The translations under genes were made by a program, and so were the position numbers. Positions 45,002-47,318 of a stretch of 64,000 nucleotides of DNA are shown here, in pieces. This DNA is from Devosia sp. ZB163. Lineage in GTDB: Bacteria > Pseudomonadota > Alphaproteobacteria > Rhizobiales > Devosiaceae. The stretch's first letter is position 1. Every line of letters starts with the position of its first letter. Location: contig NZ_JAQRMY010000004.1 in the NCBI RefSeq assembly GCF_028613635.1, forward strand, positions 391,182 through 455,181. Direction: 5' to 3'. Under the pieces are notes generated by a model. It saw only the letters and a list, made by a program, of their open reading frames with translations. It ran no database searches and had not been told where the DNA came from.

Positions 45002-45376
45002 ATGCCCAAGACTGTGATGATCGTTGAGGACAACGAGCTCAATATGAAGCTCTTCAACGATCTGCTCGAATCTCGCGGATACTCGATCATCCAGACCCGC
45101 AACGGGCTGGAGGCGTTGGATCTTGCTCGGGCACACAAGCCGGACCTGATCCTGATGGACATCCAGCTGCCGGAAGTTTCCGGGCTCGTCGTCACCAAGT
45201 GGCTCAAGGAAGACGACGAACTGGCGTCGATTCCCGTCATCGCGGTGACCGCCTTCGCCATGAAGGGCGACGAGGAGAGGATTCTCCAGGGCGGATGCGA
45301 GGGCTACATCTCCAAACCCATCTCGGTGCCTCACTTTTTGGAAACGATTGCCCATTACATTGGACCAGCCAACTAG
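45002..45376 (+). CDS. divK: Cell-cycle response regulator DivK
   Basis: DivK is a single-domain response regulator that, when phosphorylated by DivJ and dephosphorylated by PleC, controls CtrA activity and cell polarity. The 124-residue receiver has the acid pair E9/D10, the phospho-acceptor D53 in [12 protein letters not shown]83 in AVTAFAM and K105 in ISKPIS. The ATG follows GGAGG. pleD follows after 44 bases. Confidence 0.96.
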
Positions 45377-45420
45377 CTGGCAAACGGGCAGATTTCCTCA
45401 AATCGCGGGGGTTGAGGTCT

Positions 45421-46791
45421 TTGACGGCGCGGGTGCTGATCGTCGACGATATTCCAACGAATGTGCGCCTCCTCGAGGCGCGGCTTTCGGCTGAGTATTT
45501 CGACGTCGTTACCGCGTCGAACGGCAAGGACGCGCTGGCCATATGCGCCGAGGGCGATATCGACATCGTCCTGCTCGACGTGATGATGCCCGAGATGGAC
45601 GGCTTCGAGGTCTGTGCGCGGCTCAAGGCCGACCGCGCGACCAGCCATATTCCGGTGCTGATGGTGACGGCGCTCGATCAGCCGTCGGATCGTGTCCGTG
45701 GCCTCGAGGCCGGGGCGGACGACTTCATCACCAAGCCCGTGGACGATGTGCAACTGATGGCGCGGGTGAAGAGCCTTGTGCGCCTCAAGGCCCTGACCGA
45801 CGAGCTCCGGGCGCGTGCCAGCACCGGGCAGGACATCGCGATGGAAGATGCCACCCGGGCGTTGGACACGGTCGACCACGAGGATGGCCGGATCCTGCTG
45901 GTGGATACCGATGTGCGGCATGCCGAGCGGATCCGTGGCTACCTGTCGGCTAACAACCGCGTGGACGTCCTGGGTGATCCGAGCGATGCCGCGCTGGCGG
46001 TGAGCGGCGGGGATTACGAGCTGGCCCTGGTTTCGATGGCGCTGGGCGACTTCGATCCGCTGCGGGTCTGCTCGCAGATGCGGACGGCCGAGCAGACGCG
46101 GACGCTGCCGATCATCCTGATTGCCGAGGAGGATGATCGCGCGCGGGTGGTGCGCGGGCTCGACCTCGGCGTCAACGACTTCATCATGCGGCCGGTCGAG
46201 CGCAACGAACTCGTGGCGCGCATCCGGACCCAGATTCGACGGCAGCGTTATGCGGTGGAGTTGCGCCAGAGCGTGACCAACACGCTTGCGCTGGCGGTGA
46301 TCGACGAACTCACCGGGCTCTACAATCGCCGCTATTTCGACCGGCATTTGTCGATCATGCTATCGAAGTCGCAGCAGCAGCACCGCGACATGGCGGTGAT
46401 GCTGATCGACATGGACTACTTCAAGATGGTTAACGACACGCACGGTCACGACACCGGCGATGCTGTTCTGCGTCAGTTCTCCGACCGGCTACGCCGCAAC
46501 ATCCGCGGTGTGGACCTGGCCTGCCGATTCGGCGGCGAGGAGTTCGTGGTGCTGATGCCCGATACCGACTTCAGGCAGGCGCAGGGCGTTGCCGAGCGTG
46601 TGCGCAATGCGGTCGCCGAGAAGAACTTCGAGGGCGGGAATGGCCGTCCGCTGGGCGTTACGGTGTCGATCGGCCTGGCGCTCAACGAGCGCGGCAGCGA
46701 TACGCCGGAGGTGCTGCTGAAGCGCGCGGACGTGGCGCTGTACCGGGCGAAGCGGGAAGGCCGCAATCGCGTCGTGTACGACGCGGCGTAG
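45421..46791 (+). CDS. pleD: Diguanylate cyclase response regulator PleD
   Basis: PleD makes cyclic di-GMP at the pole in response to DivJ/PleC signalling. The 456-residue protein has a receiver with D53 (LLDVMMPEMDG), a second, degenerate receiver (about 156-275) and a GGDEF domain with the active GGEEF at 371-375. The allosteric inhibitory site R362-G-V-D365 is intact, so product feedback is expected. The start is TTG at 45421, which gives the usual family length; GAGG lies just upstream. The divK-pleD pair is conserved. Confidence 0.96.
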   Translation: MTARVLIVDDIPTNVRLLEARLSAEYFDVVTASNGKDALAICAEGDIDIVLLDVMMPEMDGFEVCARLKADRATSHIPVLMVTALDQPSDRVRGLEAGADDFITKPVDDVQLMARVKSLVRLKALTDELRARASTGQDIAMEDATRALDTVDHEDGRILLVDTDVRHAERIRGYLSANNRVDVLGDPSDAALAVSGGDYELALVSMALGDFDPLRVCSQMRTAEQTRTLPIILIAEEDDRARVVRGLDLGVNDFIMRPVERNELVARIRTQIRRQRYAVELRQSVTNTLALAVIDELTGLYNRRYFDRHLSIMLSKSQQQHRDMAVMLIDMDYFKMVNDTHGHDTGDAVLRQFSDRLRRNIRGVDLACRFGGEEFVVLMPDTDFRQAQGVAERVRNAVAEKNFEGGNGRPLGVTVSIGLALNERGSDTPEVLLKRADVALYRAKREGRNRVVYDAA

Positions 46792-46899
46792 TTGACCCAG
46801 CCTGCGTCGGTCAAAAATCGCACCGGTTAAGGTTAAGGGTTAGTAACGTTGTTGGACGAGCTATTTGATTAGCCGCAAGAAAGCGTTAAGTTAGCTCTA

Positions 46900-47078
46900 C
46901 CAGACACGCCGACACCCGGTGTCAGCAGTCACCCCTACGGTTCTCCTCAGGTCCGCCGCAACTCCTGGGTCCGTAGGGCGGCTGGTCCGCAGTGGACAAG
47001 AGTGGCCTCTTCGACATGCCGCTGCGGACCAGCCATCTTCTTCAGGAACGCCCGTCCCTATACAGGGGCGGGCGTTTT
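46900..47078 (+). ncRNA. Candidate structured small RNA downstream of pleD
   Basis: No protein gene lies here, yet four hairpins follow each other on the plus strand: GACAC/GTGTC (46911-46923), CCCTACGG/CCGTAGGG (46933-46978), a perfect 13-bp stem with ends 46980-46992 and 47022-47034 that holds an inner AAGAG/CTCTT hairpin, and a terminator with T-tail (47047-47078). The big loop of the second hairpin exposes TTCTCCTC, an anti-Shine-Dalgarno-like stretch. The motif GGTCCG occurs three times. The 5' end is a guess from a weak TTGATT promoter-like hexamer at 46865. It does not match tmRNA, SRP RNA, 6S or RNase P as I know them. Confidence 0.5.
47047..47078 (+). terminator. Intrinsic terminator of the candidate sRNA (or of pleD)
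   Basis: AACGCCCGTCCC (47047-47058) pairs with GGGGCGGGCGTT (47065-47076) with one G-T wobble around TATACA, and ends in TTTT. The orientation serves plus-strand transcripts only: the other side of the stem is purine-rich. Confidence 0.85.
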
Positions 47079-47093
47079 CCATTCGTGATGCCG

Positions 47094-47124
47094 AAAACGA
47101 AAAGCCCCGCGCGAGGGCGGGGCT
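47094..47124 (-). terminator. Intrinsic terminator after rpmG
   Basis: AGCCCCGC (47103-47110) and GCGGGGCT (47117-47124) form an 8-bp stem; on the minus strand it is followed by TTTTCGTTTT. It lies 27 bases after the rpmG stop and faces the plus-strand terminator, leaving a short buffer between the two transcripts. Confidence 0.88.
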
Positions 47125-47150
47125 CTTTGAAGGCGTCGGAAAACCCGATC

Positions 47151-47318
47151 CTACTTGATCTTGGCTTCCTTGAACTCGACGTGCTTGCGCACGACGGGAT
47201 CGTACTTCTTGAACGAGAGCTTCTCGGTCTGCGTACGCGAGTTCTTCTTGGTGACGTAGTAGTAGCCGGTGTCAGCGGTCGACACGAGCTTGATCTTGAG
47301 AGATACGGCTTTGGCCAT
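47151..47318 (-). CDS. rpmG: 50S ribosomal protein L33
   Basis: This 55-residue basic protein of the large ribosomal subunit reads [14 protein letters not shown], then [10 protein letters not shown] and the final VEFKEAKIK, as in alphaproteobacterial L33. It lacks zinc-binding cysteines (the C-minus form). It is a single leftward gene with its own terminator, converging on pleD and the candidate sRNA. Confidence 0.97.

Follow-up and report, generated by a model that had tools for sequence, protein, structure and literature searches.

A small RNA gene of the EcpR1 family between divK-pleD and rpmG in Devosia sp. ZB163, and a conserved complementary site before gcrA

What is encoded in the roughly 180 bases at 46900-47080, between pleD and rpmG, in Devosia sp. 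ZB163? We analysed a stretch of 64,000 nucleotides (hereafter the window; contig NZ_JAQRMY010000004.1, positions 391,182 to 455,181 of the forward strand), in which an initial annotation had proposed an undescribed small RNA (sRNA) at this place. An Rfam scan of the whole window gave three matches over their gathering scores, namely two tRNAs and RF02500 (Atu_C6, EcpR1). EcpR1 is an sRNA already described in rhizobia-like bacteria, where it delays the cell cycle in response to stress (PMC4414408). The RNA of the window is a well-supported member of this known family at its known place, and the finding is real, not new. We consider it highly probable that the locus is an EcpR1 gene, likely running from its own promoter to its own terminator, whose RNA would pair through the loop of its first stem-loop with the leader of gcrA and lower GcrA under stress. 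The parts of the RNA, with stem-loops abbreviated SL, are as follows.

46931..47039, plus strand: EcpR1 core (SL1 and SL2), full-length RF02500 match (cmscan, 88.5 bits; gathering score 60; model positions 1-113 of 113)
46933..46978, plus strand: SL1, with outer stem 46933-46940/46971-46978 and inner stem 46946-46951/46964-46969, from the projected Rfam consensus structure and covariation in 83 sequences
46952..46963, plus strand: SL1 terminal loop TCCGCCGCAACT, the target-pairing loop by its role in Sinorhizobium meliloti (S. meliloti), where it reads UCCGCCGCAUCU (PMC4414408)
46980..47034, plus strand: SL2, a long covarying stem of variable sequence with AGAGTGGCCTCTTCG in its loop, from the alignment and an exact 13-bp stem
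46911..46923, plus strand: 5' leader hairpin GACAC-CCG-GTGTC, unconserved (5 of 50 family loci, all of the window's genus)

The match spans all 113 model positions and lies 28.5 bits over the gathering score; three model positions of the SL2 loop are missing from the window, as is one that separates the outer from the inner stem of SL1. RF02500 was matched once only in the window's genome (E <= 0.001). The initial annotation had read the stretch as a new trans-acting RNA in which TTCTCCTC, placed in a hairpin loop, would mask Shine-Dalgarno sequences. A stable fold of four hairpins and the presence of TTCTCCTC agree with that reading, whereas the full-length match to RF02500 and the published description of the locus as EcpR1 (PMC4414408) contradict its novelty; a match to a known Rfam family is among the outcomes that the initial annotation had itself named as refuting. 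According to the Rfam consensus structure, TTCTCCTC (46941-46948) actually forms the internal bulge of SL1 and the start of its inner stem. This bulge varies among relatives, whereas the SL1 loop is almost invariant and is the part by which the S. meliloti RNA pairs. The anti-Shine-Dalgarno mechanism was thus rejected, and we regard a new sRNA of this kind as very unlikely. What does survive of that proposal is a structured RNA of the trans-acting type, with covarying stems and linked to cell-cycle control.

The fold itself was as first described. The plus strand forms four successive hairpins with a minimum free energy of -98.5 kcal/mol (z = -5.87; none of 200 shuffles equally stable), the perfect 13-bp stem 46980-46992/47022-47034 is exact, and GGTCCG occurs three times, at 46950, 46968 and 46984. 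The minus strand comes close to this stability (z = -5.03), which the long stems would lead one to expect. Compensatory change, which the initial annotation had suggested looking for, was scored with the Rfam structure, transferred to window coordinates, in an alignment of 83 sequences taken from the 105 loci that have the loop motif; kinship among the sequences is ignored in these counts. Over 25 base pairs, 95.7% of the cells are paired (87.9 +/- 0.4 in shuffles), two-sided changes are seen in 19 of the 25 pairs (11.0 +/- 1.4 in shuffles), and 182 cells carry a two-sided change (59.3 +/- 7.9 in shuffles). When the partners are shifted by 1-3 bases, the paired share falls to 29-56%. The inner SL1 stem has four invariant pairs, which are hence uninformative. 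SL1 and SL2 thus covary.

These patterns also bear on two other accounts of the stretch. One takes it as merely the terminator hairpins between two convergent genes, with no regulatory function: the last hairpin is indeed terminator-like, and a second GC-rich hairpin (about 47104-47123) probably serves rpmG. Terminators need neither covarying stem-loops nor a loop with 11 of its 12 positions almost unchanged, and we give this account almost no weight. The other supposes that a small protein gene overlaps it, with the 79-codon frame 46919-47158 as one example. Both strands do contain open frames, but relatives differ within the core by indels of one and two bases that leave the base pairs intact. 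The protein-coding reading was rejected on these grounds and seems exceedingly improbable.

At E <= 0.001, RF02500 was matched in 60 of 61 genomes sampled from the window's family (48 over the cut-off) and in 204 of 297 sampled from its order (165 over the cut-off), the window's own genome included in both; the filters were stricter for large samples, and the true counts may be higher. A sample of the class gave 10 matches in 385 genomes, including the window's genome and one other of its order. The other eight (L141-L148) belong to two families outside the order (f61 and f142), with a PleD match upstream in seven and RpmG downstream in six. EcpR1 therefore extends beyond the window's order in the taxonomy used. 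On the other hand, RF02500 was absent from all 14 named control genomes at E <= 0.001, and no plasmid copies were found in a plasmid collection searched by distant blastn. The EcpR1 loop was also found downstream of pleD in four of the 14 named PleD-region loci that were scanned: those of a Mesorhizobium (L031) and of metagenome-assembled genomes of Rhizobiaceae (L032), Hyphomicrobiales (L033) and Rhodobiaceae (L044).

The neighbourhood is that of the published gene.

45002..45376, plus strand: divK-like response regulator gene, upstream (Pfam Response_reg; named divK from place and domain)
45421..46791, plus strand: pleD, with two receiver domains and a GGDEF domain (Pfam on frame 45286-46788)
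47151..47318, minus strand: rpmG, ribosomal protein L33, convergent neighbour (Pfam Ribosomal_L33)

The TTG start of pleD was inferred from the beginning of the first receiver domain. The closest named relatives of PleD are from Hyphomicrobiales, in a comparison from which the window's own record and very near ones were possibly omitted. Between the pleD stop (46791) and rpmG there are mechanical open frames only and no conserved protein gene was found, in agreement with the initial annotation. It had also argued that the stretch is not a leader; the next gene is convergent, and a leader of a downstream gene was accordingly rejected. Of 49 related loci of 2.4-3.1 kb, 48 have a PleD match upstream in the same orientation (a weak one, with 27% identity, in L137), and 41 have RpmG convergent and downstream. 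On the minus strand, a GC-rich hairpin followed by Ts at about 47104-47123 is probably the rpmG terminator.

How far does the RNA resemble its best-known relative? The S. meliloti ecpR1 gene (also SmelC291, Sra33 and SmrC10) sits between divK-pleD and rpmG. It is an independent transcription unit that needs a sigma70 promoter, and its expression increases in stationary phase and in response to stress, with a part played by ppGpp. Its RNAs are 101, 142 and 171 nucleotides long, and processing of the 5' end has been proposed. The RNA represses gcrA and dnaA, pairing by the GC-rich SL1 loop (all PMC4414408). The window shares the position between divK-pleD and rpmG, the strand of pleD, SL1 and SL2, the GC-rich SL1 loop, a putative terminator, a putative sigma70-like promoter and a complementary site in the gcrA leader. 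The two differ in the SL1 loop (UCCGCCGCAACU in the window, UCCGCCGCAUCU in S. meliloti) and in the SL2 loop motif, which is UCUUCG in the window and UCCUCG in S. meliloti. Moreover, a fixed dnaA site was not detected in the window's family. Methylosinus sporium 5, a different organism, has an EcpR1 with the same two stem-loops, found by transcript mapping and Rfam, and its targets are unsettled there (PMC12403871).

The SL1 loop is the most constrained part of the RNA. It is near-invariant, the window matching 11 of the 12 bases of UCCGCCGCAUCU, and this loop, UCCGCCGCA, is likely the active element. The variant base, position 46961, follows the string CAGGTCCGCCGCA. Each of the 50 family copies examined has A there, whereas the 55 copies examined from other families all have T; four of 109 loci were dropped from this count for want of the search motif, two of which show the T form. 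This base is a clean lineage marker within the functional loop. It falls just outside the stretch that pairs with gcrA in the window's family.

We then consider gcrA as the target. The gcrA gene of the window's genome (Pfam GcrA) is preceded by a complementary site, TGTGGCGGACC, at -112 to -102 counted from the start of the Pfam match and, by eye, just 3' of a promoter-like sequence. The validated S. meliloti site lies at -109 to -95 (PMC4414408). A gcrA match was present in 59 of the 61 family genomes, and 31 of these loci were viewed, two of which (L214 and L219) were dropped for lack of a recognisable start. In 27 of the remaining 29, the leader holds at least 9 contiguous pairs with the loop, near the S. 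meliloti place. The complementary site before gcrA is thus conserved in the family.

Outside the family, but within the order, a site was defined as at least 9 contiguous pairs with at most one G-U, between -170 and -30. The sample comprised 55 of the 204 EcpR1-positive genomes, all from families other than the window's, together with 29 of the 93 that are negative, picked by eye among the GcrA matches listed. Six of 21 positive loci in one retrieved set were omitted as close kin, and one upstream region used ends at a contig end. Positive here means E <= 0.001, and several of these genomes are under the gathering score. When the 29 negative genomes were searched with laxer filters, 26 gave no match at E <= 1 and three gave weak ones (E 0.13 to 0.87), at a limit that also yields matches in 2 of the 14 control genomes. 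The site was found in 26 of 55 EcpR1-bearing genomes and in one of 29 EcpR1-lacking genomes (one-sided Fisher p = 1.4e-5); with at least 10 pairs, the counts are 21 of 55 and 0 of 29 (p = 2.6e-5). The reversed loop under the same rule gave 1 of 55 and 0 of 29, and mononucleotide shuffles gave 2.1% and 2.6%. The same association appears inside a single family (f15), where four of six EcpR1-bearing and none of four EcpR1-lacking genomes have the site.

Several observations weigh against the EcpR1 reading proposed here. The loop is described as identical in all the homologues analysed in PMC4414408, yet one base differs in all copies examined from the window's family. With the loop reversed as a control, 5 of the 29 family gcrA loci still show 9 bp. 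The genomes are not independent, and counted per family the association is weaker, the site being present in 11 of 26 with EcpR1 and in 1 of 12 without it (one-sided p = 0.038). No 9-bp gcrA site was found in 29 of the 55 EcpR1-bearing genomes outside the family, and the 11-base site motif is unenriched genome-wide (41 occurrences against 70 for the reversed pattern). In addition, the conserved block before gcrA includes a palindrome, and another cause may explain part of its conservation. For dnaA, 450 bases upstream were scanned in the family, where 27 of 30 loci were usable and three were too short. At least 9 contiguous pairs occur in 8 of the 27, at scattered places with no fixed site (8.7% of shuffles; 2 of 27 with the reversed loop). 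The window's own dnaA has only 7 contiguous pairs, with an imperfect duplex of -24.0 kcal/mol. The excess at dnaA is weak, and dnaA is possibly a more local target; this outcome leaves the probability of the main reading unchanged. As judged from these sequences, gcrA is better supported than dnaA as a target in the window's genome.

In locus L190 this conserved palindrome, CACGATATCTCGTG, lies between about 125 and 110 bases before gcrA, where it overlaps the beginning of the EcpR1 site; it might form a hairpin or be a site for a protein.

Where would the transcript begin and end? Two further features come into question.

46864..46892, plus strand: sigma70-like promoter TTTGAT-N17-TAAGTT, from a degenerate pattern and family comparison
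About 47047..47080, plus strand: GC-rich hairpin followed by TTTTCC, probable Rho-independent terminator of ecpR1, from a reading of the sequence and the predicted fold

Transcription would be expected to start near 46899. Of 50 family loci, 30 have the promoter-like pattern 60-80 bases 5' of the core, compared with 1.0% of shuffles and 1 of 55 other loci; the pattern was written post hoc, after viewing the family, and is suggestive only. A standard sigma70 scan found no promoter between pleD and the RNA on the plus strand. At the other end, the terminal stem with a T-tail of the initial annotation is present as the hairpin with TTTTCC, but a simple terminator scan did not call it.

These results are relevant to another suggestion of the initial annotation, that of a stable 3' product of processing. 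On this account the RNA would be cut from the divK-pleD mRNA and would have no promoter of its own. The RNA does lie directly downstream of pleD on the same strand, and the simple scan gave neither a plus-strand terminator-like site nor a standard sigma70 promoter between the two. On this basis, read-through from pleD is possible. This suggestion is set against the promoter-like pattern at a fixed distance, with the post hoc origin and narrow distribution given above, and against the independent S. meliloti unit with its sigma70 promoter (PMC4414408). We consider a purely pleD-derived RNA improbable; the part of the suggestion that may hold is processing, in view of the 5'-end processing proposed in S. 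meliloti. We return to EcpR1 as a gene of its own. Its transcription is probably driven by the sigma70-like promoter at about 46864-46892 and ended by the hairpin terminator near 47080, which would give an EcpR1 RNA of roughly 180 nucleotides. By analogy with S. meliloti, this RNA would be induced under stress, and its SL1 loop (GGUCCGCCGCA) would pair with the complementary site before gcrA, in the 5' leader of its mRNA. The pairing would lower GcrA and might thereby slow cell-cycle progression under stress.

What might control the gene in turn? Upstream of the promoter, we found an element resembling a CtrA box.

46831..46847, plus strand: CtrA-box-like element GGTTAAGGGTTAGTAAC, with 6 of 8 matches to TTAA-N7-TTAA

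The CtrA motif TTAA-N7-TTAA is given in PMC12403871, where M. sporium CtrA motifs and EcpR1 are placed in one proposed network. The AT-rich GGTTAAGGGTTAGTAAC ends about 16 bases 5' of the promoter in the window, and the gap is larger in other family loci. A degenerate pattern (GGTTA..TT..TA), drawn up post hoc, fits fully in 30 of 50 family loci, in 6 of the 55 from other families and in none of 500 mononucleotide shuffles. When TTAA-N7-TTAA itself is the rule, 22 of the 50 upstream regions from the family show 7 of 8 matches and none shows 8 of 8, against a background of 9.6% of dinucleotide shuffles with 7 or more matches. A related pattern occurs at five places in the window's genome and at none in reverse. 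One is ecpR1, and the other four are as follows.

Between flgB and a FliO-like gene (FliO match below the Pfam cut-off)
Between a flgF-like gene and frames leading to fliM
Before a DUF2336 gene
Beside a transglycosylase-domain frame

Two of these four places lie in flagellar intergenic regions (L375 and L376), and flagellar genes are classical CtrA targets. Speaking against a CtrA box, the window site has only 6 of 8 matches, and loci of one genus differ in sequence there. In the accessible parts of the EcpR1 and the EcpR1 and CtrA literature, PMC12403871 included, no report of a CtrA site before ecpR1 was found, and one may exist elsewhere. The frequent CtrA-box-like element upstream of the ecpR1 promoter and the family-wide base change in the loop may be new details. 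Direct control of ecpR1 by CtrA in the window's family, through a conserved box between pleD and the promoter, which would link CtrA to GcrA, is a tentative proposal that we hold to be rather doubtful.

The RNA, its place and its main targets are already published, so that the locus is not a discovery as such. What the comparison adds is a site in the gcrA leader that the window's family retains at nearly the same position and that is almost missing from genomes without EcpR1. This points to gcrA as the older and more general target of the RNA. If the control by CtrA were true, CtrA would set the level of a gcrA-repressing RNA, and two known cell-cycle regulators would be joined through an RNA.
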